Shown in pieces: positions 7,872-33,125 of a stretch of 64,000 nt of DNA. Numbering within the stretch: position 1 is the stretch's first letter; every line of letters begins with the position of its first letter. The translations under genes and the position numbers were made by a program. The notes under the pieces are model-generated. The model was not told the origin of the DNA and searched no databases. It worked only from the letters and a program-made list of their open reading frames with translations. The stretch comes from Datnioides undecimradiatus (taxonomy: Eukaryota > Chordata > Actinopteri > Lobotiformes > Datnioididae), in contig WARS01000030.1 of NCBI GenBank assembly GCA_008933995.1, positions 1,939,501 to 2,003,500 on the forward strand, in the 5' to 3' direction.

Positions 7872-7898
7872 TGTCATTCAATTTACACACTGTTGCAC

Positions 7899-8443: not shown

Positions 8444-8474
8444 TAATCCAATCTAATTTAATCTAATCTAAAAA

Positions 8475-9030: not shown

Positions 9031-9049
9031 TGTCCCAAAAAAAAGTTGG

Positions 9050-9165: not shown

Positions 9166-9780
9166 GTATTCTATTTTTTGAAACAATGCATTTCAAAGTT
9201 GCCTGACAACATAATTACATTTTTATTTGAATGATAAAGTATTTGGCCCTTGACAGTTTAAAATACTAATTTATTGTGCACGTCCTACATCTGACCCCAG
9301 TTCGGACTCACGGTAAGTTTGCATTAATGTTTGAATGGTTACACAACTTTTTAAGACTTACAATTTAATCCGAAAGACTTTATCAATTACAGCCTACCAG
9401 TTGTATTTGAATGAGTATATTTTACTGCTTCAAGATGAAGGTGCACATTTGTGTATTTCCTAAATCTTAAGATTTACTGATACCAAATTCTTTTTGCAAT
9501 CATATTTATCAAGATGGACAGTATTCTGAGTTGGATTGTAACAGCTTTCATAAGGAAAAGATTGCTTTTACTTTGAATGAGTGTAATTTTGTGGTTTGAG
9601 TTGCAGAAGCACATTGTTTAAATCTGAAGACTTACTGACACCAAACTCTGTTTGCCTTCATATCTGTCCAGATACACACTACTCTCAGTAAGAAACTTTC
9701 TAAAGGTTTTGGTTAGTAAATGACAGTCTTTACTATCAGTCCAATTCAAGTCAATGTATTTTGATGCTGAGAGTTCTCAC
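9166..9780 (+). repeat. Highly diverged satellite units
   Basis: About three degraded units (gactgtattctgagttgg-like, ttactgataccaaattc, tgccttcatatctgtcc) follow the piggyBac-like fragment. They retain the word order of the 187-base monomer. Confidence 0.55.
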
Positions 9781-9894
9781 ACATAATTATTGTTCATTAG
9801 CTAAACTGAATTTTGGATATTTTATGAAATCATACATTACCCATGTGACCTGGCCAACTGCAGGTGAGCCAATAGGCCAACGGGTCACTCTACT

Positions 9895-10054
9895 TTGACC
9901 TCAGTCGCACCTTCACATGCACACACACACACGCAGGCACACACACAAACATGCATTGAATACCAAAACTATCGCTGCCTAACAGACACCCCCATGCAAT
10001 CCACAAATGACACCTGTCTGAGACACACACCTCCTGTCCAAATAATGTGTTTGA

Positions 10055-10098
<44 letters not shown>

Positions 10099-10114
10099 CA
10101 CACACACACACACA
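9895..10114. repeat. CA-rich microsatellite block
   Basis: Interrupted CA repeats from about 9919, with a long pure run at 10055-10114. Frames of His-Thr or Val-Cys repeats on either strand are artefacts. The block has an inverted counterpart (TG run at 35430-35467) in the 35 kb arm. Confidence 0.9.
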
Positions 10115-10269
10115 TTAACTTAAAAGCTACAGATGAAAAAACATCACCCTTTGATCATCCTTTGCCTACATCTTGACAAGACAACAACAAACAAACAAAC
10201 TGAGTTTTGATGTGATCTTTGATCTTTCAAGGGGCCTGACACATTTGAACAATGAAGAGGAGCTACACT

Positions 10270-10520
10270 GCACTAGAAGTTTCTCATTTGAAACCCTGTG
10301 GAGGGTGAGAGAGACCAGAAGACCTACCTAGGAGGAGTGTCATGAGGAGAGGAGAAAAGTGAAAATTATGAGGATTATTCTTCAACTGTTGAGGAAGACG
10401 ATCTTGCAGAGTTTGAAGGTGCTTGCTTTTCATCGGGATACTGCTGTGAGCTACTGGCAAGACAAAAAGCCCAAAATCACTACAGTCAGAACAAAGGGGA
10501 AGTCAACAACCATGACAAGG
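10270..10520 (+). pseudogene. piggyBac-like fragment with acidic N-terminal part, copy 2
   Basis: This is the inverted counterpart of 34957-35310, with shared words such as tttgaaaccctgtggagg, gagagagaccagaa, cttgcagagtttgaagg and atcgggatactgctgtgagc. The reading has an acidic EED-rich part joined to HRDTAVSYWQDKK-like and KREVNNHDK-like transposase sequence. It has frame breaks and a deletion relative to the 35 kb copy. The join implies loss of most of the transposase. Confidence 0.5.
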
Positions 10521-10559
10521 TAATGGTATTTTTTATTCAATAGATTTCATTGTCGTGTT

Positions 10560-11283
10560 AGAGCATAACTATTCTCAGGTGGACACGTGATTCTGAAGGA
10601 TGTGGTTAGTACATGACAGCTATGGCTATCAGTGCAAAATGAATGTGCCTCTATCACAGTTCAGAGTTGAAGATGGACATTTAAGGTGTAATTCCCAAAT
10701 CTTCCTGAAACCAACCTTTGTTTGCCTTTAGATTTATAAAGATGCAAGCTATGCTGAGTTGGAAACTTGATTCTAACAGCTTTTGTTAAGAAATGACAGC
10801 TTGTGCGACAGGGGCTATTTGAGTGGCATTTTACTGCTGTGAGCTGTGGAAGCAGATATACTGTGTCTTTTCATAATCTGAAGCCTTACTGACAGCAAAT
10901 CCATTTTCCCTTCAACAACATCAAAATGCACAGTATTCTGAGTTGGAACCTTGATTCTAACAGCTTTTGTTAGGAAATGACAGCTTTTGTGAAAGGGGCT
11001 ATTTGAGTGAGTGTGTTTCACTGTTGTGAGCTGAGGAGAAACAGTCACTAGGGGGAGCAACTTAGCTTTCAGTCATAGCTAATTTGCAATGTACTTCTGG
11101 TGTTATCTTTACTGCTTCACTTTACTGTTGTGAACTGAGCCAAAACTCTTTCTGCCTTCAAGTGCATTGAGATGCACATTATTCTGAGTTGGGAACTTAT
11201 TCTAACTGGTTTGTTTAGAAATGACTGCTTCACTATCAGTACTATTTGAGTGCACTTTACTGTTATGAGCTGAAGGAGCAGAT
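10560..11283 (+). repeat. Diverged satellite leading into the homogeneous core
   Basis: About four units. The one at 10930-11135 carries an extra ~100-base insert (gaaacagtcactagggggag ... gttatctttactgcttcac) that recurs elsewhere in the domain. The last diverged unit spans 11124-11310 and merges into the core repeat. Confidence 0.8.
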
Positions 11284-14200
11284 ATACTGTGTATTTTCAA
11301 AATGTGAAGACTTAGGCACTGGAAACTCATTTTCCCTTCAAGAACTTCAAAATGCACAGTGTTCTGAGTTGGAAACGTCATTCTAACAGCTTTTGTTAGG
11401 AAATGACAGCATTCGCTATCACTGCTATTTGAGTGAGTGCGTTTTGCTGTTAAGAGCTGTGGAAGCTCAAATACTGTGTATTTTCAAAATGTGAAGACTT
11501 AGGCACTGGAAACTCATTTTCCCTTCAAGAACTTCAAAATGCACAGTGTTCTGAGTTGGAAACGTCATTCTAACAGCTTTTGTTAGGAAATGACAGCATT
11601 CGCTATCACTGCTATTTGAGTGAGTGCGTTTTGCTGTTAAGAGCTGTGGAAGCTCAAATACTGTGTATTTTCAAAATGTGAAGACTTAGGCACTGGAAAC
11701 TCATTTTCCCTTCAAGAACTTCAAAATGCACAGTGTTCTGAGTTGGAAACGTCATTCTAACAGCTTTTGTTAGGAAATGACAGCATTCGCTATCACTGCT
11801 ATTTGAGTGAGTGCGTTTTGCTGTTAAGAGCTGTGGAAGCTCAAATACTGTGTATTTTCAAAATGTGAAGACTTAGGCACTGGAAACTCATTTTCCCTTC
11901 AAGAACTTCAAAATGCACAGTGTTCTGAGTTGGAAACGTCATTCTAACAGCTTTTGTTAGGAAATGACAGCATTCGCTATCACTGCTATTTGAGTGAGTG
12001 CGTTTTGCTGTTAAGAGCTGTGGAAGCTCAAATACTGTGTATTTTCAAAATGTGAAGACTTAGGCACTGGAAACTCATTTTCCCTTCAAGAACTTCAAAA
12101 TGCACAGTGTTCTGAGTTGGAAACGTCATTCTAACAGCTTTTGTTAGGAAATGACAGCATTCGCTATCACTGCTATTTGAGTGAGTGCGTTTTGCTGTTA
12201 AGAGCTGTGGAAGCTCAAATACTGTGTATTTTCAAAATGTGAAGACTTAGGCACTGGAAACTCATTTTCCCTTCAAGAACATCAAAATGCACAGTGTTCT
12301 GAGTTGGAAACGTCATTCTAACAGCTTTTGTTAGGAAATGACAGCATTCGCTATCACTGCTATTTGAGTGAGTGCGTTTTGCTGTTAAGAGCTGTGGAAG
12401 CTCAAATACTGTGTATTTTCAAAATGTGAAGACTTAGGCACTGGAAACTCATTTTCCCTTCAAGAACATCAAAATGCACAGTGTTCTGAGTTGGAAACGT
12501 CATTCTAACAGCTTTTGTTAGGAAATGACAGCATTCGCTATCACTGCTATTTGAGTGAGTGCGTTTTGCTGTTAAGAGCTGTGGAAGCTCAAATACTGTG
12601 TATTTTCAAAATGTGAAGACTTAGGCACTGGAAACTCATTTTCCCTTCAAGAACATCAAAATGCACAGTGTTCTGAGTTGGAAACGTCATTCTAACAGCT
12701 TTTGTTAGGAAATGACAGCATTCGCTATCACTGCTATTTGAGTGAGTGCGTTTTGCTGTTAAGAGCTGTGGAAGCTCAAATACTGTGTATTTTCAAAATG
12801 TGAAGACTTAGGCACTGGAAACTCATTTTCCCTTCAAGAACATCAAAATGCACAGTGTTCTGAGTTGGAAACGTCATTCTAACAGCTTTTGTTAGGAAAT
12901 GACAGCATTCGCTATCACTGCTATTTGAGTGAGTGCGTTTTGCTGTTAAGAGCTGTGGAAGCTCAAATACTGTGTATTTTCAAAATGTGAAGACTTAGGC
13001 ACTGGAAACTCATTTTCCCTTCAAGAACATCAAAATGCACAGTGTTCTGAGTTGGAAACGTCATTCTAACAGCTTTTGTTAGGAAATGACAGCATTCGCT
13101 ATCACTGCTATTTGAGTGAGTGCGTTTTGCTGTTAAGAGCTGTGGAAGCTCAAATACTGTGTATTTTCAAAATGTGAAGACTTAGGCACTGGAAACTCAT
13201 TTTCCCTTCAAGAACATCAAAATGCACAGTGTTCTGAGTTGGAAACGTCATTCTAACAGCTTTTGTTAGGAAATGACAGCATTCGCTATCACTGCTATTT
13301 GAGTGAGTGCGTTTTGCTGTTAAGAGCTGTGGAAGCTCAAATACTGTGTATTTTCAAAATGTGAAGACTTAGGCACTGGAAACTCATTTTCCCTTCAAGA
13401 ACATCAAAATGCACAGTGTTCTGAGTTGGAAACGTCATTCTAACAGCTTTTGTTAGGAAATGACAGCATTCGCTATCACTGCTATTTGAGTGAGTGCGTT
13501 TTGCTGTTAAGAGCTGTGGAAGCTCAAATACTGTGTATTTTCAAAATGTGAAGACTTAGGCACTGGAAACTCATTTTCCCTTCAAGAACATCAAAATGCA
13601 CAGTGTTCTGAGTTGGAAACGTCATTCTAACAGCTTTTGTTAGGAAATGACAGCATTCGCTATCACTGCTATTTGAGTGAGTGCGTTTTGCTGTTAAGAG
13701 CTGTGGAAGCTCAAATACTGTGTATTTTCAAAATGTGAAGACTTAGGCACTGGAAACTCATTTTCCCTTCAAGAACATCAAAATGCACAGTGTTCTGAGT
13801 TGGAAACGTCATTCTAACAGCTTTTGTTAGGAAATGACAGCATTCGCTATCACTGCTATTTGAGTGAGTGCGTTTTGCTGTTAAGAGCTGTGGAAGCTCA
13901 AATACTGTGTATTTTCAAAATGTGAAGACTTAGGCACTGGAAACTCATTTTCCCTTCAAGAACATCAAAATGCACAGTGTTCTGAGTTGGAAACGTCATT
14001 CTAACAGCTTTTGTTAGGAAATGACAGCATTCGCTATCACTGCTATTTGAGTGAGTGCGTTTTGCTGTTAAGAGCTGTGGAAGCTCAAATACTGTGTATT
14101 TTCAAAATGTGAAGACTTAGGCACTGGAAACTCATTTTCCCTTCAAGAACATCAAAATGCACAGTGTTCTGAGTTGGAAACGTCATTCTAACAGCTTTTG

Positions 14201-17200
14201 TTAGGAAATGACAGCATTCGCTATCACTGCTATTTGAGTGAGTGCGTTTTGCTGTTAAGAGCTGTGGAAGCTCAAATACTGTGTATTTTCAAAATGTGAA
14301 GACTTAGGCACTGGAAACTCATTTTCCCTTCAAGAACATCAAAATGCACAGTGTTCTGAGTTGGAAACGTCATTCTAACAGCTTTTGTTAGGAAATGACA
14401 GCATTCGCTATCACTGCTATTTGAGTGAGTGCGTTTTGCTGTTAAGAGCTGTGGAAGCTCAAATACTGTGTATTTTCAAAATGTGAAGACTTAGGCACTG
14501 GAAACTCATTTTCCCTTCAAGAACATCAAAATGCACAGTGTTCTGAGTTGGAAACGTCATTCTAACAGCTTTTGTTAGGAAATGACAGCATTCGCTATCA
14601 CTGCTATTTGAGTGAGTGCGTTTTGCTGTTAAGAGCTGTGGAAGCTCAAATACTGTGTATTTTCAAAATGTGAAGACTTAGGCACTGGAAACTCATTTTC
14701 CCTTCAAGAACATCAAAATGCACAGTGTTCTGAGTTGGAAACGTCATTCTAACAGCTTTTGTTAGGAAATGACAGCATTCGCTATCACTGCTATTTGAGT
14801 GAGTGCGTTTTGCTGTTAAGAGCTGTGGAAGCTCAAATACTGTGTATTTTCAAAATGTGAAGACTTAGGCACTGGAAACTCATTTTCCCTTCAAGAACAT
14901 CAAAATGCACAGTGTTCTGAGTTGGAAACGTCATTCTAACAGCTTTTGTTAGGAAATGACAGCATTCGCTATCACTGCTATTTGAGTGAGTGCGTTTTGC
15001 TGTTAAGAGCTGTGGAAGCTCAAATACTGTGTATTTTCAAAATGTGAAGACTTAGGCACTGGAAACTCATTTTCCCTTCAAGAACATCAAAATGCACAGT
15101 GTTCTGAGTTGGAAACGTCATTCTAACAGCTTTTGTTAGGAAATGACAGCATTCGCTATCACTGCTATTTGAGTGAGTGCGTTTTGCTGTTAAGAGCTGT
15201 GGAAGCTCAAATACTGTGTATTTTCAAAATGTGAAGACTTAGGCACTGGAAACTCATTTTCCCTTCAAGAACATCAAAATGCACAGTGTTCTGAGTTGGA
15301 AACGTCATTCTAACAGCTTTTGTTAGGAAATGACAGCATTCGCTATCACTGCTATTTGAGTGAGTGCGTTTTGCTGTTAAGAGCTGTGGAAGCTCAAATA
15401 CTGTGTATTTTCAAAATGTGAAGACTTAGGCACTGGAAACTCATTTTCCCTTCAAGAACATCAAAATGCACAGTGTTCTGAGTTGGAAACGTCATTCTAA
15501 CAGCTTTTGTTAGGAAATGACAGCATTCGCTATCACTGCTATTTGAGTGAGTGCGTTTTGCTGTTAAGAGCTGTGGAAGCTCAAATACTGTGTATTTTCA
15601 AAATGTGAAGACTTAGGCACTGGAAACTCATTTTCCCTTCAAGAACATCAAAATGCACAGTGTTCTGAGTTGGAAACGTCATTCTAACAGCTTTTGTTAG
15701 GAAATGACAGCATTCGCTATCACTGCTATTTGAGTGAGTGCGTTTTGCTGTTAAGAGCTGTGGAAGCTCAAATACTGTGTATTTTCAAAATGTGAAGACT
15801 TAGGCACTGGAAACTCATTTTCCCTTCAAGAACATCAAAATGCACAGTGTTCTGAGTTGGAAACGTCATTCTAACAGCTTTTGTTAGGAAATGACAGCAT
15901 TCGCTATCACTGCTATTTGAGTGAGTGCGTTTTGCTGTTAAGAGCTGTGGAAGCTCAAATACTGTGTATTTTCAAAATGTGAAGACTTAGGCACTGGAAA
16001 CTCATTTTCCCTTCAAGAACATCAAAATGCACAGTGTTCTGAGTTGGAAACGTCATTCTAACAGCTTTTGTTAGGAAATGACAGCATTCGCTATCACTGC
16101 TATTTGAGTGAGTGCGTTTTGCTGTTAAGAGCTGTGGAAGCTCAAATACTGTGTATTTTCAAAATGTGAAGACTTAGGCACTGGAAACTCATTTTCCCTT
16201 CAAGAACATCAAAATGCACAGTGTTCTGAGTTGGAAACGTCATTCTAACAGCTTTTGTTAGGAAATGACAGCATTCGCTATCACTGCTATTTGAGTGAGT
16301 GCGTTTTGCTGTTAAGAGCTGTGGAAGCTCAAATACTGTGTATTTTCAAAATGTGAAGACTTAGGCACTGGAAACTCATTTTCCCTTCAAGAACATCAAA
16401 ATGCACAGTGTTCTGAGTTGGAAACGTCATTCTAACAGCTTTTGTTAGGAAATGACAGCATTCGCTATCACTGCTATTTGAGTGAGTGCGTTTTGCTGTT
16501 AAGAGCTGTGGAAGCTCAAATACTGTGTATTTTCAAAATGTGAAGACTTAGGCACTGGAAACTCATTTTCCCTTCAAGAACATCAAAATGCACAGTGTTC
16601 TGAGTTGGAAACGTCATTCTAACAGCTTTTGTTAGGAAATGACAGCATTCGCTATCACTGCTATTTGAGTGAGTGCGTTTTGCTGTTAAGAGCTGTGGAA
16701 GCTCAAATACTGTGTATTTTCAAAATGTGAAGACTTAGGCACTGGAAACTCATTTTCCCTTCAAGAACATCAAAATGCACAGTGTTCTGAGTTGGAAACG
16801 TCATTCTAACAGCTTTTGTTAGGAAATGACAGCATTCGCTATCACTGCTATTTGAGTGAGTGCGTTTTGCTGTTAAGAGCTGTGGAAGCTCAAATACTGT
16901 GTATTTTCAAAATGTGAAGACTTAGGCACTGGAAACTCATTTTCCCTTCAAGAACATCAAAATGCACAGTGTTCTGAGTTGGAAACGTCATTCTAACAGC
17001 TTTTGTTAGGAAATGACAGCATTCGCTATCACTGCTATTTGAGTGAGTGCGTTTTGCTGTTAAGAGCTGTGGAAGCTCAAATACTGTGTATTTTCAAAAT
17101 GTGAAGACTTAGGCACTGGAAACTCATTTTCCCTTCAAGAACATCAAAATGCACAGTGTTCTGAGTTGGAAACGTCATTCTAACAGCTTTTGTTAGGAAA

Positions 17201-20200
17201 TGACAGCATTCGCTATCACTGCTATTTGAGTGAGTGCGTTTTGCTGTTAAGAGCTGTGGAAGCTCAAATACTGTGTATTTTCAAAATGTGAAGACTTAGG
17301 CACTGGAAACTCATTTTCCCTTCAAGAACATCAAAATGCACAGTGTTCTGAGTTGGAAACGTCATTCTAACAGCTTTTGTTAGGAAATGACAGCATTCGC
17401 TATCACTGCTATTTGAGTGAGTGCGTTTTGCTGTTAAGAGCTGTGGAAGCTCAAATACTGTGTATTTTCAAAATGTGAAGACTTAGGCACTGGAAACTCA
17501 TTTTCCCTTCAAGAACATCAAAATGCACAGTGTTCTGAGTTGGAAACGTCATTCTAACAGCTTTTGTTAGGAAATGACAGCATTCGCTATCACTGCTATT
17601 TGAGTGAGTGCGTTTTGCTGTTAAGAGCTGTGGAAGCTCAAATACTGTGTATTTTCAAAATGTGAAGACTTAGGCACTGGAAACTCATTTTCCCTTCAAG
17701 AACATCAAAATGCACAGTGTTCTGAGTTGGAAACGTCATTCTAACAGCTTTTGTTAGGAAATGACAGCATTCGCTATCACTGCTATTTGAGTGAGTGCGT
17801 TTTGCTGTTAAGAGCTGTGGAAGCTCAAATACTGTGTATTTTCAAAATGTGAAGACTTAGGCACTGGAAACTCATTTTCCCTTCAAGAACATCAAAATGC
17901 ACAGTGTTCTGAGTTGGAAACGTCATTCTAACAGCTTTTGTTAGGAAATGACAGCATTCGCTATCACTGCTATTTGAGTGAGTGCGTTTTGCTGTTAAGA
18001 GCTGTGGAAGCTCAAATACTGTGTATTTTCAAAATGTGAAGACTTAGGCACTGGAAACTCATTTTCCCTTCAAGAACATCAAAATGCACAGTGTTCTGAG
18101 TTGGAAACGTCATTCTAACAGCTTTTGTTAGGAAATGACAGCATTCGCTATCACTGCTATTTGAGTGAGTGCGTTTTGCTGTTAAGAGCTGTGGAAGCTC
18201 AAATACTGTGTATTTTCAAAATGTGAAGACTTAGGCACTGGAAACTCATTTTCCCTTCAAGAACATCAAAATGCACAGTGTTCTGAGTTGGAAACGTCAT
18301 TCTAACAGCTTTTGTTAGGAAATGACAGCATTCGCTATCACTGCTATTTGAGTGAGTGCGTTTTGCTGTTAAGAGCTGTGGAAGCTCAAATACTGTGTAT
18401 TTTCAAAATGTGAAGACTTAGGCACTGGAAACTCATTTTCCCTTCAAGAACATCAAAATGCACAGTGTTCTGAGTTGGAAACGTCATTCTAACAGCTTTT
18501 GTTAGGAAATGACAGCATTCGCTATCACTGCTATTTGAGTGAGTGCGTTTTGCTGTTAAGAGCTGTGGAAGCTCAAATACTGTGTATTTTCAAAATGTGA
18601 AGACTTAGGCACTGGAAACTCATTTTCCCTTCAAGAACATCAAAATGCACAGTGTTCTGAGTTGGAAACGTCATTCTAACAGCTTTTGTTAGGAAATGAC
18701 AGCATTCGCTATCACTGCTATTTGAGTGAGTGCGTTTTGCTGTTAAGAGCTGTGGAAGCTCAAATACTGTGTATTTTCAAAATGTGAAGACTTAGGCACT
18801 GGAAACTCATTTTCCCTTCAAGAACATCAAAATGCACAGTGTTCTGAGTTGGAAACGTCATTCTAACAGCTTTTGTTAGGAAATGACAGCATTCGCTATC
18901 ACTGCTATTTGAGTGAGTGCGTTTTGCTGTTAAGAGCTGTGGAAGCTCAAATACTGTGTATTTTCAAAATGTGAAGACTTAGGCACTGGAAACTCATTTT
19001 CCCTTCAAGAACATCAAAATGCACAGTGTTCTGAGTTGGAAACGTCATTCTAACAGCTTTTGTTAGGAAATGACAGCATTCGCTATCACTGCTATTTGAG
19101 TGAGTGCGTTTTGCTGTTAAGAGCTGTGGAAGCTCAAATACTGTGTATTTTCAAAATGTGAAGACTTAGGCACTGGAAACTCATTTTCCCTTCAAGAACA
19201 TCAAAATGCACAGTGTTCTGAGTTGGAAACGTCATTCTAACAGCTTTTGTTAGGAAATGACAGCATTCGCTATCACTGCTATTTGAGTGAGTGCGTTTTG
19301 CTGTTAAGAGCTGTGGAAGCTCAAATACTGTGTATTTTCAAAATGTGAAGACTTAGGCACTGGAAACTCATTTTCCCTTCAAGAACATCAAAATGCACAG
19401 TGTTCTGAGTTGGAAACGTCATTCTAACAGCTTTTGTTAGGAAATGACAGCATTCGCTATCACTGCTATTTGAGTGAGTGCGTTTTGCTGTTAAGAGCTG
19501 TGGAAGCTCAAATACTGTGTATTTTCAAAATGTGAAGACTTAGGCACTGGAAACTCATTTTCCCTTCAAGAACATCAAAATGCACAGTGTTCTGAGTTGG
19601 AAACGTCATTCTAACAGCTTTTGTTAGGAAATGACAGCATTCGCTATCACTGCTATTTGAGTGAGTGCGTTTTGCTGTTAAGAGCTGTGGAAGCTCAAAT
19701 ACTGTGTATTTTCAAAATGTGAAGACTTAGGCACTGGAAACTCATTTTCCCTTCAAGAACATCAAAATGCACAGTGTTCTGAGTTGGAAACGTCATTCTA
19801 ACAGCTTTTGTTAGGAAATGACAGCATTCGCTATCACTGCTATTTGAGTGAGTGCGTTTTGCTGTTAAGAGCTGTGGAAGCTCAAATACTGTGTATTTTC
19901 AAAATGTGAAGACTTAGGCACTGGAAACTCATTTTCCCTTCAAGAACATCAAAATGCACAGTGTTCTGAGTTGGAAACGTCATTCTAACAGCTTTTGTTA
20001 GGAAATGACAGCATTCGCTATCACTGCTATTTGAGTGAGTGCGTTTTGCTGTTAAGAGCTGTGGAAGCTCAAATACTGTGTATTTTCAAAATGTGAAGAC
20101 TTAGGCACTGGAAACTCATTTTCCCTTCAAGAACATCAAAATGCACAGTGTTCTGAGTTGGAAACGTCATTCTAACAGCTTTTGTTAGGAAATGACAGCA

Positions 20201-23200
20201 TTCGCTATCACTGCTATTTGAGTGAGTGCGTTTTGCTGTTAAGAGCTGTGGAAGCTCAAATACTGTGTATTTTCAAAATGTGAAGACTTAGGCACTGGAA
20301 ACTCATTTTCCCTTCAAGAACATCAAAATGCACAGTGTTCTGAGTTGGAAACGTCATTCTAACAGCTTTTGTTAGGAAATGACAGCATTCGCTATCACTG
20401 CTATTTGAGTGAGTGCGTTTTGCTGTTAAGAGCTGTGGAAGCTCAAATACTGTGTATTTTCAAAATGTGAAGACTTAGGCACTGGAAACTCATTTTCCCT
20501 TCAAGAACATCAAAATGCACAGTGTTCTGAGTTGGAAACGTCATTCTAACAGCTTTTGTTAGGAAATGACAGCATTCGCTATCACTGCTATTTGAGTGAG
20601 TGCGTTTTGCTGTTAAGAGCTGTGGAAGCTCAAATACTGTGTATTTTCAAAATGTGAAGACTTAGGCACTGGAAACTCATTTTCCCTTCAAGAACATCAA
20701 AATGCACAGTGTTCTGAGTTGGAAACGTCATTCTAACAGCTTTTGTTAGGAAATGACAGCATTCGCTATCACTGCTATTTGAGTGAGTGCGTTTTGCTGT
20801 TAAGAGCTGTGGAAGCTCAAATACTGTGTATTTTCAAAATGTGAAGACTTAGGCACTGGAAACTCATTTTCCCTTCAAGAACATCAAAATGCACAGTGTT
20901 CTGAGTTGGAAACGTCATTCTAACAGCTTTTGTTAGGAAATGACAGCATTCGCTATCACTGCTATTTGAGTGAGTGCGTTTTGCTGTTAAGAGCTGTGGA
21001 AGCTCAAATACTGTGTATTTTCAAAATGTGAAGACTTAGGCACTGGAAACTCATTTTCCCTTCAAGAACATCAAAATGCACAGTGTTCTGAGTTGGAAAC
21101 GTCATTCTAACAGCTTTTGTTAGGAAATGACAGCATTCGCTATCACTGCTATTTGAGTGAGTGCGTTTTGCTGTTAAGAGCTGTGGAAGCTCAAATACTG
21201 TGTATTTTCAAAATGTGAAGACTTAGGCACTGGAAACTCATTTTCCCTTCAAGAACATCAAAATGCACAGTGTTCTGAGTTGGAAACGTCATTCTAACAG
21301 CTTTTGTTAGGAAATGACAGCATTCGCTATCACTGCTATTTGAGTGAGTGCGTTTTGCTGTTAAGAGCTGTGGAAGCTCAAATACTGTGTATTTTCAAAA
21401 TGTGAAGACTTAGGCACTGGAAACTCATTTTCCCTTCAAGAACATCAAAATGCACAGTGTTCTGAGTTGGAAACGTCATTCTAACAGCTTTTGTTAGGAA
21501 ATGACAGCATTCGCTATCACTGCTATTTGAGTGAGTGCGTTTTGCTGTTAAGAGCTGTGGAAGCTCAAATACTGTGTATTTTCAAAATGTGAAGACTTAG
21601 GCACTGGAAACTCATTTTCCCTTCAAGAACATCAAAATGCACAGTGTTCTGAGTTGGAAACGTCATTCTAACAGCTTTTGTTAGGAAATGACAGCATTCG
21701 CTATCACTGCTATTTGAGTGAGTGCGTTTTGCTGTTAAGAGCTGTGGAAGCTCAAATACTGTGTATTTTCAAAATGTGAAGACTTAGGCACTGGAAACTC
21801 ATTTTCCCTTCAAGAACATCAAAATGCACAGTGTTCTGAGTTGGAAACGTCATTCTAACAGCTTTTGTTAGGAAATGACAGCATTCGCTATCACTGCTAT
21901 TTGAGTGAGTGCGTTTTGCTGTTAAGAGCTGTGGAAGCTCAAATACTGTGTATTTTCAAAATGTGAAGACTTAGGCACTGGAAACTCATTTTCCCTTCAA
22001 GAACATCAAAATGCACAGTGTTCTGAGTTGGAAACGTCATTCTAACAGCTTTTGTTAGGAAATGACAGCATTCGCTATCACTGCTATTTGAGTGAGTGCG
22101 TTTTGCTGTTAAGAGCTGTGGAAGCTCAAATACTGTGTATTTTCAAAATGTGAAGACTTAGGCACTGGAAACTCATTTTCCCTTCAAGAACATCAAAATG
22201 CACAGTGTTCTGAGTTGGAAACGTCATTCTAACAGCTTTTGTTAGGAAATGACAGCATTCGCTATCACTGCTATTTGAGTGAGTGCGTTTTGCTGTTAAG
22301 AGCTGTGGAAGCTCAAATACTGTGTATTTTCAAAATGTGAAGACTTAGGCACTGGAAACTCATTTTCCCTTCAAGAACATCAAAATGCACAGTGTTCTGA
22401 GTTGGAAACGTCATTCTAACAGCTTTTGTTAGGAAATGACAGCATTCGCTATCACTGCTATTTGAGTGAGTGCGTTTTGCTGTTAAGAGCTGTGGAAGCT
22501 CAAATACTGTGTATTTTCAAAATGTGAAGACTTAGGCACTGGAAACTCATTTTCCCTTCAAGAACATCAAAATGCACAGTGTTCTGAGTTGGAAACGTCA
22601 TTCTAACAGCTTTTGTTAGGAAATGACAGCATTCGCTATCACTGCTATTTGAGTGAGTGCGTTTTGCTGTTAAGAGCTGTGGAAGCTCAAATACTGTGTA
22701 TTTTCAAAATGTGAAGACTTAGGCACTGGAAACTCATTTTCCCTTCAAGAACATCAAAATGCACAGTGTTCTGAGTTGGAAACGTCATTCTAACAGCTTT
22801 TGTTAGGAAATGACAGCATTCGCTATCACTGCTATTTGAGTGAGTGCGTTTTGCTGTTAAGAGCTGTGGAAGCTCAAATACTGTGTATTTTCAAAATGTG
22901 AAGACTTAGGCACTGGAAACTCATTTTCCCTTCAAGAACATCAAAATGCACAGTGTTCTGAGTTGGAAACGTCATTCTAACAGCTTTTGTTAGGAAATGA
23001 CAGCATTCGCTATCACTGCTATTTGAGTGAGTGCGTTTTGCTGTTAAGAGCTGTGGAAGCTCAAATACTGTGTATTTTCAAAATGTGAAGACTTAGGCAC
23101 TGGAAACTCATTTTCCCTTCAAGAACATCAAAATGCACAGTGTTCTGAGTTGGAAACGTCATTCTAACAGCTTTTGTTAGGAAATGACAGCATTCGCTAT

Positions 23201-26200
23201 CACTGCTATTTGAGTGAGTGCGTTTTGCTGTTAAGAGCTGTGGAAGCTCAAATACTGTGTATTTTCAAAATGTGAAGACTTAGGCACTGGAAACTCATTT
23301 TCCCTTCAAGAACATCAAAATGCACAGTGTTCTGAGTTGGAAACGTCATTCTAACAGCTTTTGTTAGGAAATGACAGCATTCGCTATCACTGCTATTTGA
23401 GTGAGTGCGTTTTGCTGTTAAGAGCTGTGGAAGCTCAAATACTGTGTATTTTCAAAATGTGAAGACTTAGGCACTGGAAACTCATTTTCCCTTCAAGAAC
23501 ATCAAAATGCACAGTGTTCTGAGTTGGAAACGTCATTCTAACAGCTTTTGTTAGGAAATGACAGCATTCGCTATCACTGCTATTTGAGTGAGTGCGTTTT
23601 GCTGTTAAGAGCTGTGGAAGCTCAAATACTGTGTATTTTCAAAATGTGAAGACTTAGGCACTGGAAACTCATTTTCCCTTCAAGAACATCAAAATGCACA
23701 GTGTTCTGAGTTGGAAACGTCATTCTAACAGCTTTTGTTAGGAAATGACAGCATTCGCTATCACTGCTATTTGAGTGAGTGCGTTTTGCTGTTAAGAGCT
23801 GTGGAAGCTCAAATACTGTGTATTTTCAAAATGTGAAGACTTAGGCACTGGAAACTCATTTTCCCTTCAAGAACATCAAAATGCACAGTGTTCTGAGTTG
23901 GAAACGTCATTCTAACAGCTTTTGTTAGGAAATGACAGCATTCGCTATCACTGCTATTTGAGTGAGTGCGTTTTGCTGTTAAGAGCTGTGGAAGCTCAAA
24001 TACTGTGTATTTTCAAAATGTGAAGACTTAGGCACTGGAAACTCATTTTCCCTTCAAGAACATCAAAATGCACAGTGTTCTGAGTTGGAAACGTCATTCT
24101 AACAGCTTTTGTTAGGAAATGACAGCATTCGCTATCACTGCTATTTGAGTGAGTGCGTTTTGCTGTTAAGAGCTGTGGAAGCTCAAATACTGTGTATTTT
24201 CAAAATGTGAAGACTTAGGCACTGGAAACTCATTTTCCCTTCAAGAACATCAAAATGCACAGTGTTCTGAGTTGGAAACGTCATTCTAACAGCTTTTGTT
24301 AGGAAATGACAGCATTCGCTATCACTGCTATTTGAGTGAGTGCGTTTTGCTGTTAAGAGCTGTGGAAGCTCAAATACTGTGTATTTTCAAAATGTGAAGA
24401 CTTAGGCACTGGAAACTCATTTTCCCTTCAAGAACATCAAAATGCACAGTGTTCTGAGTTGGAAACGTCATTCTAACAGCTTTTGTTAGGAAATGACAGC
24501 ATTCGCTATCACTGCTATTTGAGTGAGTGCGTTTTGCTGTTAAGAGCTGTGGAAGCTCAAATACTGTGTATTTTCAAAATGTGAAGACTTAGGCACTGGA
24601 AACTCATTTTCCCTTCAAGAACATCAAAATGCACAGTGTTCTGAGTTGGAAACGTCATTCTAACAGCTTTTGTTAGGAAATGACAGCATTCGCTATCACT
24701 GCTATTTGAGTGAGTGCGTTTTGCTGTTAAGAGCTGTGGAAGCTCAAATACTGTGTATTTTCAAAATGTGAAGACTTAGGCACTGGAAACTCATTTTCCC
24801 TTCAAGAACATCAAAATGCACAGTGTTCTGAGTTGGAAACGTCATTCTAACAGCTTTTGTTAGGAAATGACAGCATTCGCTATCACTGCTATTTGAGTGA
24901 GTGCGTTTTGCTGTTAAGAGCTGTGGAAGCTCAAATACTGTGTATTTTCAAAATGTGAAGACTTAGGCACTGGAAACTCATTTTCCCTTCAAGAACATCA
25001 AAATGCACAGTGTTCTGAGTTGGAAACGTCATTCTAACAGCTTTTGTTAGGAAATGACAGCATTCGCTATCACTGCTATTTGAGTGAGTGCGTTTTGCTG
25101 TTAAGAGCTGTGGAAGCTCAAATACTGTGTATTTTCAAAATGTGAAGACTTAGGCACTGGAAACTCATTTTCCCTTCAAGAACATCAAAATGCACAGTGT
25201 TCTGAGTTGGAAACGTCATTCTAACAGCTTTTGTTAGGAAATGACAGCATTCGCTATCACTGCTATTTGAGTGAGTGCGTTTTGCTGTTAAGAGCTGTGG
25301 AAGCTCAAATACTGTGTATTTTCAAAATGTGAAGACTTAGGCACTGGAAACTCATTTTCCCTTCAAGAACATCAAAATGCACAGTGTTCTGAGTTGGAAA
25401 CGTCATTCTAACAGCTTTTGTTAGGAAATGACAGCATTCGCTATCACTGCTATTTGAGTGAGTGCGTTTTGCTGTTAAGAGCTGTGGAAGCTCAAATACT
25501 GTGTATTTTCAAAATGTGAAGACTTAGGCACTGGAAACTCATTTTCCCTTCAAGAACATCAAAATGCACAGTGTTCTGAGTTGGAAACGTCATTCTAACA
25601 GCTTTTGTTAGGAAATGACAGCATTCGCTATCACTGCTATTTGAGTGAGTGCGTTTTGCTGTTAAGAGCTGTGGAAGCTCAAATACTGTGTATTTTCAAA
25701 ATGTGAAGACTTAGGCACTGGAAACTCATTTTCCCTTCAAGAACATCAAAATGCACAGTGTTCTGAGTTGGAAACGTCATTCTAACAGCTTTTGTTAGGA
25801 AATGACAGCATTCGCTATCACTGCTATTTGAGTGAGTGCGTTTTGCTGTTAAGAGCTGTGGAAGCTCAAATACTGTGTATTTTCAAAATGTGAAGACTTA
25901 GGCACTGGAAACTCATTTTCCCTTCAAGAACATCAAAATGCACAGTGTTCTGAGTTGGAAACGTCATTCTAACAGCTTTTGTTAGGAAATGACAGCATTC
26001 GCTATCACTGCTATTTGAGTGAGTGCGTTTTGCTGTTAAGAGCTGTGGAAGCTCAAATACTGTGTATTTTCAAAATGTGAAGACTTAGGCACTGGAAACT
26101 CATTTTCCCTTCAAGAACATCAAAATGCACAGTGTTCTGAGTTGGAAACGTCATTCTAACAGCTTTTGTTAGGAAATGACAGCATTCGCTATCACTGCTA

Positions 26201-29200
26201 TTTGAGTGAGTGCGTTTTGCTGTTAAGAGCTGTGGAAGCTCAAATACTGTGTATTTTCAAAATGTGAAGACTTAGGCACTGGAAACTCATTTTCCCTTCA
26301 AGAACATCAAAATGCACAGTGTTCTGAGTTGGAAACGTCATTCTAACAGCTTTTGTTAGGAAATGACAGCATTCGCTATCACTGCTATTTGAGTGAGTGC
26401 GTTTTGCTGTTAAGAGCTGTGGAAGCTCAAATACTGTGTATTTTCAAAATGTGAAGACTTAGGCACTGGAAACTCATTTTCCCTTCAAGAACATCAAAAT
26501 GCACAGTGTTCTGAGTTGGAAACGTCATTCTAACAGCTTTTGTTAGGAAATGACAGCATTCGCTATCACTGCTATTTGAGTGAGTGCGTTTTGCTGTTAA
26601 GAGCTGTGGAAGCTCAAATACTGTGTATTTTCAAAATGTGAAGACTTAGGCACTGGAAACTCATTTTCCCTTCAAGAACATCAAAATGCACAGTGTTCTG
26701 AGTTGGAAACGTCATTCTAACAGCTTTTGTTAGGAAATGACAGCATTCGCTATCACTGCTATTTGAGTGAGTGCGTTTTGCTGTTAAGAGCTGTGGAAGC
26801 TCAAATACTGTGTATTTTCAAAATGTGAAGACTTAGGCACTGGAAACTCATTTTCCCTTCAAGAACATCAAAATGCACAGTGTTCTGAGTTGGAAACGTC
26901 ATTCTAACAGCTTTTGTTAGGAAATGACAGCATTCGCTATCACTGCTATTTGAGTGAGTGCGTTTTGCTGTTAAGAGCTGTGGAAGCTCAAATACTGTGT
27001 ATTTTCAAAATGTGAAGACTTAGGCACTGGAAACTCATTTTCCCTTCAAGAACATCAAAATGCACAGTGTTCTGAGTTGGAAACGTCATTCTAACAGCTT
27101 TTGTTAGGAAATGACAGCATTCGCTATCACTGCTATTTGAGTGAGTGCGTTTTGCTGTTAAGAGCTGTGGAAGCTCAAATACTGTGTATTTTCAAAATGT
27201 GAAGACTTAGGCACTGGAAACTCATTTTCCCTTCAAGAACATCAAAATGCACAGTGTTCTGAGTTGGAAACGTCATTCTAACAGCTTTTGTTAGGAAATG
27301 ACAGCATTCGCTATCACTGCTATTTGAGTGAGTGCGTTTTGCTGTTAAGAGCTGTGGAAGCTCAAATACTGTGTATTTTCAAAATGTGAAGACTTAGGCA
27401 CTGGAAACTCATTTTCCCTTCAAGAACATCAAAATGCACAGTGTTCTGAGTTGGAAACGTCATTCTAACAGCTTTTGTTAGGAAATGACAGCATTCGCTA
27501 TCACTGCTATTTGAGTGAGTGCGTTTTGCTGTTAAGAGCTGTGGAAGCTCAAATACTGTGTATTTTCAAAATGTGAAGACTTAGGCACTGGAAACTCATT
27601 TTCCCTTCAAGAACATCAAAATGCACAGTGTTCTGAGTTGGAAACGTCATTCTAACAGCTTTTGTTAGGAAATGACAGCATTCGCTATCACTGCTATTTG
27701 AGTGAGTGCGTTTTGCTGTTAAGAGCTGTGGAAGCTCAAATACTGTGTATTTTCAAAATGTGAAGACTTAGGCACTGGAAACTCATTTTCCCTTCAAGAA
27801 CATCAAAATGCACAGTGTTCTGAGTTGGAAACGTCATTCTAACAGCTTTTGTTAGGAAATGACAGCATTCGCTATCACTGCTATTTGAGTGAGTGCGTTT
27901 TGCTGTTAAGAGCTGTGGAAGCTCAAATACTGTGTATTTTCAAAATGTGAAGACTTAGGCACTGGAAACTCATTTTCCCTTCAAGAACATCAAAATGCAC
28001 AGTGTTCTGAGTTGGAAACGTCATTCTAACAGCTTTTGTTAGGAAATGACAGCATTCGCTATCACTGCTATTTGAGTGAGTGCGTTTTGCTGTTAAGAGC
28101 TGTGGAAGCTCAAATACTGTGTATTTTCAAAATGTGAAGACTTAGGCACTGGAAACTCATTTTCCCTTCAAGAACATCAAAATGCACAGTGTTCTGAGTT
28201 GGAAACGTCATTCTAACAGCTTTTGTTAGGAAATGACAGCATTCGCTATCACTGCTATTTGAGTGAGTGCGTTTTGCTGTTAAGAGCTGTGGAAGCTCAA
28301 ATACTGTGTATTTTCAAAATGTGAAGACTTAGGCACTGGAAACTCATTTTCCCTTCAAGAACATCAAAATGCACAGTGTTCTGAGTTGGAAACGTCATTC
28401 TAACAGCTTTTGTTAGGAAATGACAGCATTCGCTATCACTGCTATTTGAGTGAGTGCGTTTTGCTGTTAAGAGCTGTGGAAGCTCAAATACTGTGTATTT
28501 TCAAAATGTGAAGACTTAGGCACTGGAAACTCATTTTCCCTTCAAGAACATCAAAATGCACAGTGTTCTGAGTTGGAAACGTCATTCTAACAGCTTTTGT
28601 TAGGAAATGACAGCATTCGCTATCACTGCTATTTGAGTGAGTGCGTTTTGCTGTTAAGAGCTGTGGAAGCTCAAATACTGTGTATTTTCAAAATGTGAAG
28701 ACTTAGGCACTGGAAACTCATTTTCCCTTCAAGAACATCAAAATGCACAGTGTTCTGAGTTGGAAACGTCATTCTAACAGCTTTTGTTAGGAAATGACAG
28801 CATTCGCTATCACTGCTATTTGAGTGAGTGCGTTTTGCTGTTAAGAGCTGTGGAAGCTCAAATACTGTGTATTTTCAAAATGTGAAGACTTAGGCACTGG
28901 AAACTCATTTTCCCTTCAAGAACATCAAAATGCACAGTGTTCTGAGTTGGAAACGTCATTCTAACAGCTTTTGTTAGGAAATGACAGCATTCGCTATCAC
29001 TGCTATTTGAGTGAGTGCGTTTTGCTGTTAAGAGCTGTGGAAGCTCAAATACTGTGTATTTTCAAAATGTGAAGACTTAGGCACTGGAAACTCATTTTCC
29101 CTTCAAGAACATCAAAATGCACAGTGTTCTGAGTTGGAAACGTCATTCTAACAGCTTTTGTTAGGAAATGACAGCATTCGCTATCACTGCTATTTGAGTG

Positions 29201-31676
29201 AGTGCGTTTTGCTGTTAAGAGCTGTGGAAGCTCAAATACTGTGTATTTTCAAAATGTGAAGACTTAGGCACTGGAAACTCATTTTCCCTTCAAGAACATC
29301 AAAATGCACAGTGTTCTGAGTTGGAAACGTCATTCTAACAGCTTTTGTTAGGAAATGACAGCATTCGCTATCACTGCTATTTGAGTGAGTGCGTTTTGCT
29401 GTTAAGAGCTGTGGAAGCTCAAATACTGTGTATTTTCAAAATGTGAAGACTTAGGCACTGGAAACTCATTTTCCCTTCAAGAACATCAAAATGCACAGTG
29501 TTCTGAGTTGGAAACGTCATTCTAACAGCTTTTGTTAGGAAATGACAGCATTCGCTATCACTGCTATTTGAGTGAGTGCGTTTTGCTGTTAAGAGCTGTG
29601 GAAGCTCAAATACTGTGTATTTTCAAAATGTGAAGACTTAGGCACTGGAAACTCATTTTCCCTTCAAGAACATCAAAATGCACAGTGTTCTGAGTTGGAA
29701 ACGTCATTCTAACAGCTTTTGTTAGGAAATGACAGCATTCGCTATCACTGCTATTTGAGTGAGTGCGTTTTGCTGTTAAGAGCTGTGGAAGCTCAAATAC
29801 TGTGTATTTTCAAAATGTGAAGACTTAGGCACTGGAAACTCATTTTCCCTTCAAGAACATCAAAATGCACAGTGTTCTGAGTTGGAAACGTCATTCTAAC
29901 AGCTTTTGTTAGGAAATGACAGCATTCGCTATCACTGCTATTTGAGTGAGTGCGTTTTGCTGTTAAGAGCTGTGGAAGCTCAAATACTGTGTATTTTCAA
30001 AATGTGAAGACTTAGGCACTGGAAACTCATTTTCCCTTCAAGAACATCAAAATGCACAGTGTTCTGAGTTGGAAACGTCATTCTAACAGCTTTTGTTAGG
30101 AAATGACAGCATTCGCTATCACTGCTATTTGAGTGAGTGCGTTTTGCTGTTAAGAGCTGTGGAAGCTCAAATACTGTGTATTTTCAAAATGTGAAGACTT
30201 AGGCACTGGAAACTCATTTTCCCTTCAAGAACATCAAAATGCACAGTGTTCTGAGTTGGAAACGTCATTCTAACAGCTTTTGTTAGGAAATGACAGCATT
30301 CGCTATCACTGCTATTTGAGTGAGTGCGTTTTGCTGTTAAGAGCTGTGGAAGCTCAAATACTGTGTATTTTCAAAATGTGAAGACTTAGGCACTGGAAAC
30401 TCATTTTCCCTTCAAGAACATCAAAATGCACAGTGTTCTGAGTTGGAAACGTCATTCTAACAGCTTTTGTTAGGAAATGACAGCATTCGCTATCACTGCT
30501 ATTTGAGTGAGTGCGTTTTGCTGTTAAGAGCTGTGGAAGCTCAAATACTGTGTATTTTCAAAATGTGAAGACTTAGGCACTGGAAACTCATTTTCCCTTC
30601 AAGAACATCAAAATGCACAGTGTTCTGAGTTGGAAACGTCATTCTAACAGCTTTTGTTAGGAAATGACAGCATTCGCTATCACTGCTATTTGAGTGAGTG
30701 CGTTTTGCTGTTAAGAGCTGTGGAAGCTCAAATACTGTGTATTTTCAAAATGTGAAGACTTAGGCACTGGAAACTCATTTTCCCTTCAAGAACATCAAAA
30801 TGCACAGTGTTCTGAGTTGGAAACGTCATTCTAACAGCTTTTGTTAGGAAATGACAGCATTCGCTATCACTGCTATTTGAGTGAGTGCGTTTTGCTGTTA
30901 AGAGCTGTGGAAGCTCAAATACTGTGTATTTTCAAAATGTGAAGACTTAGGCACTGGAAACTCATTTTCCCTTCAAGAACATCAAAATGCACAGTGTTCT
31001 GAGTTGGAAACGTCATTCTAACAGCTTTTGTTAGGAAATGACAGCATTCGCTATCACTGCTATTTGAGTGAGTGCGTTTTGCTGTTAAGAGCTGTGGAAG
31101 CTCAAATACTGTGTATTTTCAAAATGTGAAGACTTAGGCACTGGAAACTCATTTTCCCTTCAAGAACATCAAAATGCACAGTGTTCTGAGTTGGAAACGT
31201 CATTCTAACAGCTTTTGTTAGGAAATGACAGCATTCGCTATCACTGCTATTTGAGTGAGTGCGTTTTGCTGTTAAGAGCTGTGGAAGCTCAAATACTGTG
31301 TATTTTCAAAATGTGAAGACTTAGGCACTGGAAACTCATTTTCCCTTCAAGAACATCAAAATGCACAGTGTTCTGAGTTGGAAACGTCATTCTAACAGCT
31401 TTTGTTAGGAAATGACAGCATTCGCTATCACTGCTATTTGAGTGAGTGCGTTTTGCTGTTAAGAGCTGTGGAAGCTCAAATACTGTGTATTTTCAAAATG
31501 TGAAGACTTAGGCACTGGAAACTCATTTTCCCTTCAAGAACTTCAAAATGCACAGTGTTCTGAGTTGGAAACGTCATTCTAACAGCTTCTGTTAGGAAAT
31601 GACAGCAATCATGACAGGTCCTATTTGAGTGAGTGCGCTTTGGTGTTAAGAGCTGTGGAAGCTCAAATACTGTGTA
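11284..31676 (+). repeat. Homogeneous 187-bp satellite core, ~109 head-to-tail copies
   Basis: The word cttaggcact starts at 11311, 11498 and 11685, and again at 31320 and 31507. Between 11311 and 31507 the distance is exactly 108 x 187, so there is no net insertion or deletion in 20 kb. Units look identical apart from one position: units 1-5 and the last (109) have gaacttcaaaatg, units 6-108 have gaacatcaaaatg. The last unit diverges after about 31590. The monomer is 39% GC by count (73 of 187). Each copy contains gttggaaacg (11368-11377 in unit 1) and a perfect 6-base dyad ctaaca-gcttt-tgttag. No frame of 60 codons or more is open anywhere between 11060 and 31476. Size and homogeneity fit a centromeric or pericentromeric satellite. 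Confidence 0.97.
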
Positions 31677-32499
31677 TGAGTAACATGAAGCAGTAAAGAT
31701 AACACTAGAAGTACATTGCACCGTTGCTCGTCAGCTCATATCAGTGAAACACACTTACTCAAATAGCCCCTTTCACAAAAGCTGTCATTTCCTAACAACA
31801 GTTGTTAGAATCAATTTTTTTTAACCTCACTCGATATATCTGTCATTTCATAACAAAAGCTGTTAGAATGAAGTTTCCAACTCAGAATACTGTGCATTTT
31901 GATGTTCCTGAAGGGAAAATGACTTTGCTGTCTCTAAGTGTTCACATTTTGAAAATACACAGTATTTGAGCTTCAACAACTCACAACAGTAAAACGCACT
32001 CACTTAAATAGCAGTGATAGTGAATGCTGTCATTTCATAACAAAAGCTGTTAGAATGAAGTTTCCAACTCAGAATACTGTGCATTTTGATGTTCTTGAAG
32101 GGAAAATGACTTTGCTGTCTCTAAGTCATCACATTTTGAAAATACATAGTATTTGAGCTTCCACAACTCACAGCACTACAACACTCTCAGTCAAATAGCA
32201 GTGATAGTGAATGCTTTCATTTTTTAACAACAGCTGTAAGAATGAAGTTTCCAACTCAGAATACTGTGCATTTTGATGTTCTTGAAGGGAAAATGAGTTT
32301 GCTTTCCCTAAGCTTTCACGTTTTGAAAATACACAGTATTTCTTCTTCTTCAGCTTTTAACAACAAAAAGCACTCACTTAAATCGGCCCTGTTGTGTCAT
32401 GTCGAGCAGTGGTCTGATGCAGGACATATACAGTAAATTAATATTTTAAACTGTCATACATTATTAAAAAATACTAATGTATGTAATGTATGTTCTCAC

Positions 32500-32665
32500 A
32501 CAACGCTGAAATGCATTGATTTAAACAATAGAATTCTTTGTCATGGTTGTCAATTCTTCTGTTGTTCTGGTTATATCCAGGATGATTTGAGCCTTCGTCC
32601 CTGGATGTCCCAGCACTGTCCATACGATTAGTGTTGTTCAGGAGCACATTTTGCCTTTTCTTGGG
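32500..32665 (-). pseudogene. piggyBac-like transposase fragment, copy 3
   Basis: The minus strand reads gtgctcctgaacaacact ... gtgctgggacatccagg ... ataaccagaacaacag ... caaccatgacaaag, aligning throughout with the fragment at 9050-9165. The reading recalls YNQNNRRIDNHDK. It sits between diverged satellite units and is too short and broken to encode a protein. Confidence 0.45.
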
Positions 32666-32984
32666 AAAGTAGAAAACAAGAACATATGCCTCAGTGGCAC
32701 ACTAAACTCTCAATTATAAAGCACTAATGGAGAGAGCTGTTATTTACATTTGAAGGCGTTTAGAATTAAGGTTTCGGCTGCATCTGGAATAATACGAAGG
32801 CAAAAAGAGTTTGATTTCAGTAACTCTTCAAATATAGGAAAACTCTGCTCCTTCAACTGAGAACAGCAATGTGCACTCACTCAAATAGCACTGATAGTGA
32901 AAGCAGTCATTAATTGTAGTTTGACCTGTCAACAGTGAAATTTGTCATCCTTTAAAAAAAATGTAATCATGTTCTCACACAACA

Positions 32985-33125
32985 TTGAGATGCATTGATT
33001 AAAACAATAGAATACCTTGTCATGGTTATCAATTCCCCTGTTGTGGTTCTATTGCAAGATCCAGGGACACCTGCAGTTCCCAGCAGTGGCCATATGAAGG
33101 GTGTTCTTCAGGACCACATTTTGCC
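32985..33125 (-). pseudogene. piggyBac-like transposase fragment, copy 4
   Basis: A further copy of the same fragment, about 480 bases from copy 3 and in the same orientation (gtcctgaagaacaccct, cactgctgggaactgcagg, gataaccatgacaaggtattctattg). The spacing and shared flanks suggest tandem duplication of a mixed piggyBac-plus-satellite unit. Confidence 0.45.

Follow-up and report, generated by a model that had tools for sequence, protein, structure and literature searches.

We favour, with modest confidence, the view that the satellite locus described here belongs to a set of old, non-coding cassettes with inverted arms, of which at least 19 contigs carry one each and which most likely mark the centromere or pericentromere of the chromosomes concerned. 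It is well supported that the core of the locus arose by recent amplification within an array of greater age. In what follows, the window is the whole stretch of 64,000 nucleotides that was analysed, and positions are those of the window.

A uniform core within older units

The core is defined by the landmark CTTAGGCACT, which occurs 109 times between 11311 (first) and 31507 (last) with all 108 spacings equal to exactly 187, whereas about 0.06 occurrences per strand would be expected by chance in 64 kb. The initial annotation had read off this recurrence at exactly 108 x 187 bases without net indel and had proposed a tandem-repeat finder as a check; TRF, run on the window, returns a single array at 11143-31677 with a period of 187, 109.9 copies, 99% matches and 0% indels. 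Counted from 11330, there are 108 full core units, 103 of which are identical, while the 5 at the left end differ from these by one common substitution, at unit position 17, in line with the earlier remark that the lines compared are the same apart from one site; the measured GC content of the unit, 39.0%, likewise agrees with the 39% given there. Identity at lag 187, computed per kilobase, is 0.999-1.000 at 12-31 kb and 0.24-0.61 in kilobases wholly outside the core. No higher-order repeat (multi-unit period) is present in the core, where 103 successive monomers are identical, and its long array of non-coding, head-to-tail tandem units makes it satellite DNA. The core, its edges and the unit blocks around it are arranged as follows.

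11143..31677 (+): homogeneous 187-bp satellite core, 109.9 copies (TRF, spacing and monomer comparison)
12265..31525 (+): 103 consecutive units without a single difference (19,261 bp), all with A at unit position 17 (monomer comparison)
11330..12264 (+): five edge units, identical save for T at position 17 (monomer comparison)
11143..11329 (+): diverged left edge unit, grouping with the inverted right-flank units 33305-33469 and 34197-34361 (unit tree, support 100/100)
31526..31677 (+): partial right edge unit with T at position 17; the switch in orientation coincides with the core end
11044..11142 (+): copy of the inter-unit spacer, at the left core edge, with relatives at 3780-3901 and 4389-4510 and, inverted, at 31679-31720, 33476-33533 and 34368-34466
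31732..34928 (-): older inverted units, 72-95% identical to the core, whose closest relatives in the unit tree of the window are among them (fork support 93/79)
31681..32189 (-): segment with a direct-orientation duplicate at 33494-34002 (92%)
3000..7435 (+): outer left unit blocks, on average 75-80% identical to the core
36128..38939 (+): outer right unit blocks, on average 80-83% identical to the core

Within the outer left blocks, 5060-6530 and 5979-7449 are 88% alike at an offset of about five units. The flanking units had been called strongly diverged, a description to be corrected: units of the left flank have 66-85% identity to the core, and the units directly to the right of the core are inverted, one full unit there reaching 91% and one 80-bp piece 95%. 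Neither the inversion of the units on this side nor the inverted arms had figured in the initial annotation. The unit-bearing region as a whole spans only 36 kb.

A recent amplification is supported because the centre is uniform, both of its edges carry the other allele (T17) and the flanks are old. We envisage a scenario whereby a single unit variant, A17, reached some 100 copies or more on this chromosome through unequal exchange or break-induced replication, and whereby its expansion moved the T17 units, which are older, outwards to the two edges, with the arms diverging further in the meantime. The core would have been replaced recently at this locus, inside a cassette associated with the (peri)centromere, and under assumed rates such a replacement could take place within at most some 16,000-156,000 generations.

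Conceivably, uniformity and copy number are in part a product of the assembly, a doubtful explanation in our judgement and one that would fit either biological reading of the locus. A longer array might have been collapsed to roughly what the longest reads can span, one repeated unit might have been used to fill a gap, or short-read polishing might have erased variants. Contigs do end at other loci of the satellite family, and none of the other loci sampled shows a uniformity comparable to that of the core (maximum lag-187 identity 0.88, 19 probes). On the other hand, the core is anchored in one contig with diverged units on both sides, the T17 units at both of its edges form a pattern unexpected from a filled gap, and identical unit pairs occur also on contigs C4 and C28, so that exact copies are not unique to the core. 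Its copy number is nevertheless insecure, because 19.3 kb without any distinguishing base may have been collapsed or polished. An estimate of read length from the shortest contigs was abandoned, since the sampled contigs reach down to about 10 kb, which resembles a length cut-off and is little informative.

An inverted cassette on many contigs

The core lies between two arms, the left of which (10077-11142) is 83% alike to the reverse complement of the right (34368-35467). The cassette parts in the window, other than the unit blocks given above, are these.

10077..11142 (+): left inverted arm, type 1 clade, including units 10736-11037 (sequence comparison and arm tree)
34368..35467 (-): right inverted arm, type 2 clade (sequence comparison and arm tree)
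7449..10076 (+): cassette part on the outer side of the left arm, non-coding, in which diverged units lie at 8812-8953 and 9450-9773
35467..36127 (+): cassette part on the outer side of the right arm, which also adjoins arms on contigs C4, C492 and C224

The order of parts in 7449-10076 is matched on C28 and partly on C12 and C478, and no open frame of at least 120 aa was found in 1502-38400. In a tree of nine arm copies, the left and right arms of the window fall into separate clades (100/99), and C4 carries the identical ordered pair. Since the window and C4 thus share the same ordered pair of arms from different old clades, the layout is older than its spread. Judging from arms about 17-20% apart and from usual substitution rates, the cassette probably has an age of millions to tens of millions of years. 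A CTCF-like core motif was considered for the spacer and dropped, as the strict motif has no match anywhere in the window.

With 40 of 41 candidates scored, a probe made from the arm gave 50 matches, distributed over 19 contigs with one locus on each, and the matches of any one contig lie within about 48 kb. Arms of both orientations are present on 8 of the 19 contigs and face inward on all 8, but 11 of the 19 show one orientation only; the contig end lies at most 60 kb away in 4 of these 11 and farther in 7. Units are present at 18 of the 19 arm loci, although C54 has only diverged pieces, outside the arm, and the remaining contig, C8, stops at the arm; probes set further toward the core side found units in 8 of 8 cases. 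C8 and C54 end within the arm, C13 and C189 within units, and C213, a contig of 19.6 kb, carries units over at least 1.5-10.6 kb. Among contigs longer than 1 Mb, the locus lies within 60 kb of an end in 3 of 17, against 0.40 expected (P 0.006). No units were seen at 17 readable contig termini that were sampled irrespective of arms. A hAT-like stretch taken as a dispersal control turned out to be single-copy and is therefore uninformative.

In 162 of 191 units the nearest neighbour lies on the unit's own contig, compared with a mean of 25 after shuffling, which points to local homogenisation. The closest relatives found for the core unit are on other contigs (94-95%, at loci that were fetched as best core matches), full units of its own flanks reaching at most 91%. 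The position of the loci near contig ends was also considered as an acrocentric sign: on six contigs longer than 10 Mb, the distances to the nearer end add up to 16.2 Mb, where 31.6 Mb would be expected at random (P 0.027). We do not rely on it because contig ends are not telomeres.

Does the cassette mark centromeres?

The initial annotation had read the array as a recent amplification within an old one, which holds, and had gone on to suggest a functional centromere, which does not follow, since unit size and uniformity do not show it. Independent but incomplete support for a candidate centromere comes from the genome-wide pattern: 19 contigs have one locus each, they share an inverted cassette, and some of them end in it. 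The single locus per contig is weak evidence by itself, as a conservative bound gives P up to 0.22, and contigs are not chromosomes; we do not take them as such because none of 20 contig ends shows more than one telomere hexamer in 300 bases. CENP-A chromatin may be expected on the array, with the arms as putative pericentric borders. CENP-A lies beside, not within, the most uniform layer of human chromosome 8, whereas on other human chromosomes it is found on recently homogenised repeats (PMC8997354, accessible text). A uniform core is an unreliable sign of the kinetochore site as well.

Two motif tests speak against a centromere. The ten-base stretch GTTGGAAACG looked like a striking candidate for a CENP-B box, and when scored against the box motif the core unit has 13 of 17 box bases (reached by 2 of 1000 shuffles), yet only 5 of the 9 essential bases are present, a score reached by 1000 of 1000 shuffles, and the candidate was rejected. 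Short dyad symmetry is not significant (38 of 200 shuffles reach it).

Alternatively, the locus may be a satellite block without a centromere role, that is, a heterochromatic cassette (pericentric, interstitial or other) that was copied between chromosomes and whose core happened to expand at this locus by unequal exchange. We hold this to be possible but rather unlikely. The block is small, at only 36 kb, and a gene, represented by a NETO-like exon, lies about 80 kb from the core; the kinship of the core unit with units on other contigs is what would be expected if copies move between chromosomes, and the inward layout may have been inherited from one ancestral block instead of being maintained by selection. 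One locus per contig on 19 contigs, together with contigs that end in arms or arrays, fits a chromosome landmark better. A foldback or Galileo-like transposon with long, internally repetitive inverted ends would account for long inverted arms that contain tandem repeats, but is very improbable and is set aside because unit homology, followed on five contigs, stops at seven outer ends that each have a different unit phase, an observation against fixed outer ends, and because no long frame is present; the loci are, moreover, few, and two separate loci on one contig were never seen.

Returning to a centromeric cassette, we can speculate further, and quite tentatively, that one old cassette shared between chromosomes, with two inward-facing, non-coding arms of different ancestry, serves as the base of the centromeres in this vertebrate, while the satellite core between the arms is erased and regrown time and again, and that this locus has been caught just after regrowth. 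Position and layout would then be kept while the core turns over. If the locus is centromeric, the pairing of ancient inverted arms with a fresh core would be unusual in a vertebrate. It would separate a long-lived shared framework from a replaceable core, two things that are usually confounded, and would make it testable whether arms or array carry centromere identity and whether inverted flanks play a part in an animal, as in some yeasts. The 19 loci offer replicated stages of core turnover in one genome, and even a non-centromeric locus would clearly illustrate the saltatory expansion of a satellite whose edges are still intact.

Comparison with known systems

Among the search entries listed in an open-access library, neither this satellite nor a cassette of this kind is described for a fish. 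The layered organisation of human alpha-satellite arrays, with a young uniform centre and old diverged monomers at the edges, resembles that seen here, although our core is monomeric, without higher-order repeat and without CENP-B box (PMC8997354, accessible text). Centromeric satellites of medaka are likewise arrayed in tandem, for the most part at a single place on each chromosome, the arrays measuring 20-345 kb as assembled and differing between chromosomes; those arrays are confirmed by FISH, the accessible part of the report mentions no inverted cassette, and the present array is known from its sequence alone (PMC5705604).

Centromeres of Candida tropicalis and of the fission-yeast-like type also have inverted repeats on both sides of a core, in a form that is similar from chromosome to chromosome (PMC4741521, in part). 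In those centromeres, however, the mid core is non-repetitive and 2-5 kb long, whereas the core here is satellite, and a centromere's left repeats most resemble its right ones, whereas the arms in the window belong to old, separate clades (same source). The likeness to these yeasts is one of layout, not of kinship. Macro-dyad arrays of Tribolium are kilobase satellite arrays, too, inverted and with diverged units at the turn; according to the accessible part of that report (PMC13081366), however, they consist of very abundant beetle satellites in multi-megabase regions, compared with a few tens of kilobases per locus and distinct non-satellite arms here. The EcoRI centromeric satellite of Sparidae, as described in the accessible text (PMC12731029), has the same unit length of 187 bp; it was rejected as a counterpart, the core unit having 0 EcoRI sites and 0 TCTGAAACG motifs on both strands, and GAATTC occurs in 2 of 51 flank pieces.

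Period and uniformity of the satellite core

The core and its relatives in the window are arranged as follows.

3000-11037, + strand: same-family units, 66-85% identical to the core
11143-31677: 187-bp satellite array, a single array free of indels (TRF)
31732-34928, - strand: inverted block of same-family units, a full unit reaching 91% and an 80-bp piece 95%
36128-38939, + strand: same-family units, pieces 73-92% identical to the core
3780-3901, 4389-4510, 11044-11142 and 34368-34466: copies of a spacer with CACTAGGGGGAGC or variants of it, CTCF-core-like by eye

The initial annotation had claimed an exact 187-base period without net indel and near-invariance apart from one site, and had proposed a tandem-repeat search as a check. 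The period holds: every spacing between the 109 occurrences of the landmark decamer in the window (11311 to 31507) is 187 bases, and that search, done with TRF, returned the one indel-free array. The near-invariance is borne out likewise, with 103 of the 108 full units counted from 11330 being identical and the five leftmost having T at unit position 17 where the others have A. The right-edge partial unit (31526-31677) also has T there, and the central block of the A17 variant, changeless over 19,261 bp, is bordered on both sides by the T17 variant. Compared with the commonest base of 51 flank pieces, the core differs at 19 sites; position 17 is not among them, so that the flanks most often carry A there and T is not merely the ancestral base. 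The core is most simply explained by a small T17 array within which a single A17 unit was amplified. If mutation is assumed to run at 1e-9 to 1e-8 per base per generation, 19,261 bp without change set an upper bound on the age of this state: given a correct assembly, the last complete homogenisation dates back less than about 156,000 generations at the lower rate and 16,000 at the higher.

In the unit tree of the window, the nearest kin of the core are inverted units (31920-32293 and 33733-33918), joined by a fork with 93/79 support, which is below the usual threshold; the diverged edge unit at 11143 joins 33305-33469 and 34197-34361 with 100/100 support. Aligned over 1137 columns, stretch 10077-11142 is 83% identical to 34368-35467 in reverse complement, and the core thus sits between two inverted arms. 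The spacer repeated between units measures about 100-120 bp; as a CTCF core it was rejected, the strict pattern matching nowhere in the window. No units were found in the 50 kb to each side of the window.

The arm cassette across the assembly

The assembly comprises 581.3 Mb in 497 contigs, of which C477, carrying the window, measures 7.19 Mb; its size and the types of element present suggest a fish genome. Beyond the window the landmark occurs 164 times in forward and 150 times in reverse orientation; among the matches listed (up to within contig C307) no 187-base spacing to the next landmark was seen by eye, so that within that listing this variant forms no array elsewhere. A genome query with the monomer gave 273 matches, the best at 95% identity among the 13 of 196 candidates scored. 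This search skips very common words, so identical copies elsewhere may escape it; the window's own core is absent among the matches listed. At other loci, identity at lag 187 ranged from 0.25 to 0.88 across 19 probes, values above 0.88 in a second probe set arose solely from pieces reading N, and single identical unit pairs are present on C4 and C28. The perfect core of the window is unusual among the parts of loci sampled. Identical units at one C4 stretch (L061) are spaced by 373 bases, hinting at a higher-order repeat of two units there.

An arm query (window 10120-10570) gave 50 matches on 19 contigs (40 of 41 candidates scored), confined on any one contig to about 48 kb. Arms occur in both orientations on eight contigs (C477, C307, C12, C325, C492, C28, C224 and C4), and in all eight they face inward, + copies lying left of - copies. 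The other 11 contigs have a single orientation; a contig end lies near the locus in four of these (C8, C54, C13 and C189) and not in the other seven. Eighteen of the 19 loci showed satellite units, C54 by diverged pieces alone, on the outer side of its arm; the C8 contig stops at the arm. Probes placed deeper on the core side were units throughout (8/8). Further parts of the window flank keep their order at C28 and partly at C12 and C478, and have far-side inverted copies on C492 and C28. A sequence common to the clusters at C224:915099-915136 and C12:4427440-4427480 is perhaps another part of the cassette.

How old might this layout be? A tree of the nine collected arm copies that have more than 250 query positions within one match divides into two clades (support 100/99). 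The first unites the window's left arm with those of C12, C478 and C4 and with the right arm of C28; the second holds the window's right arm together with the C4 right arm, one C492 left arm (in mirror arrangement) and one C224 copy. Within this tree only the window and C4 hold both clades on one contig, each with a first-clade arm in + orientation on the left and a second-clade arm in - orientation on the right, which implies that two distinct arms existed before reaching these contigs. With the arm query, the window's arms, 80% identical to each other, are about as distant as the left arm is from full-length arms elsewhere (76-81%). Unlike the arms, satellite units are homogenised locally: 162 of 191 have their nearest neighbour on the same contig (shuffled mean 25), in a set skewed towards core-like units because loci were taken around best matches. 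The core is 94-95% identical to units on C28 and C4, while the full units flanking it reach at most 91%.

A candidate centromere

A single site on each of many contigs, built on a common framework and with arrays at which contigs stop, has a centromere-like appearance. Contig ends fall inside the arm at C8 and C54 and inside units at C13 and C189, C213, a contig of 19.6 kb, has units spanning at least 1.5-10.6 kb, and the locus lies less than 60 kb from an end in 3 of 17 contigs over 1 Mb (0.40 expected, P 0.006). Against this weigh 17 readable contig termini, sampled regardless of arms, which had no units, and a bound of P 0.22 for one locus per contig, obtained by giving every contig without a known length an infinitely small size; taken alone, this pattern is not decisive. 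On balance we lean slightly towards the cassette marking a centromere or pericentromere. That it is a satellite cassette of a non-centromeric kind appears less probable, though a serious alternative. Similarly tentative is a notable contribution of the assembly to the perfection or copy number of the core, which would be compatible with either biological reading. No open frame of at least 120 aa lies within 1502-38400, and a transposon is very improbable. In the last 300 bases of C189 (L137) unit orientation flips, the contig breaking at an inversion point.

Published centromeres and satellite arrays serve for comparison. Medaka centromere arrays measure 20-345 kb as assembled (PMC5705604), so the size of the window's array does not exclude such a role. 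On human chromosome 8 the array is oldest in its edge monomers and youngest in its middle repeats, with CENP-A beside that youngest layer, whereas on other human chromosomes CENP-A tracks recently homogenised repeats (PMC8997354); a young core alone hence does not locate the kinetochore. All seven Candida tropicalis centromeres are described as a core between inverted repeats (PMC4741521), and Tribolium satellite arrays as macro-dyads (PMC13081366), layouts like that of the cassette but without kinship to it. Inverted repeats are present at a vertebrate centromere in the cattle X, there without the usual satellites (PMC12663436). Tests of the core unit for a CENP-B box, a dyad and the sparid satellite were negative.

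Neighbouring elements and genes

A CUB-domain stretch (L018:7961-8533), some 80 kb to the right of the core, has neuropilin and tolloid-like protein 2 as its closest match; this ordinary gene is the only one with a strong search match behind it. Two frames look CAP-superfamily-like by eye (L017:7217-7612 and L018:2183-2599); Pfam gave no match above cut-off for either, and the former has one weak PDB match (E 0.0007). Within the window, 45753-46253 holds a fragment of reverse transcriptase from a LINE-like element, and 51030-52950 has its hAT-type dimerisation and DUF4371 domains encoded in different frames; its hAT-like part, 52107-52484, had no second match in the genome, which is odd for a transposon. 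Pieces of reverse transcriptase and SCAN domains at 56891-60452 (- strand) are retroelement-like, and minisatellites of 111 bp and 27 bp lie at 63154-63944, in or beside - strand open frames.
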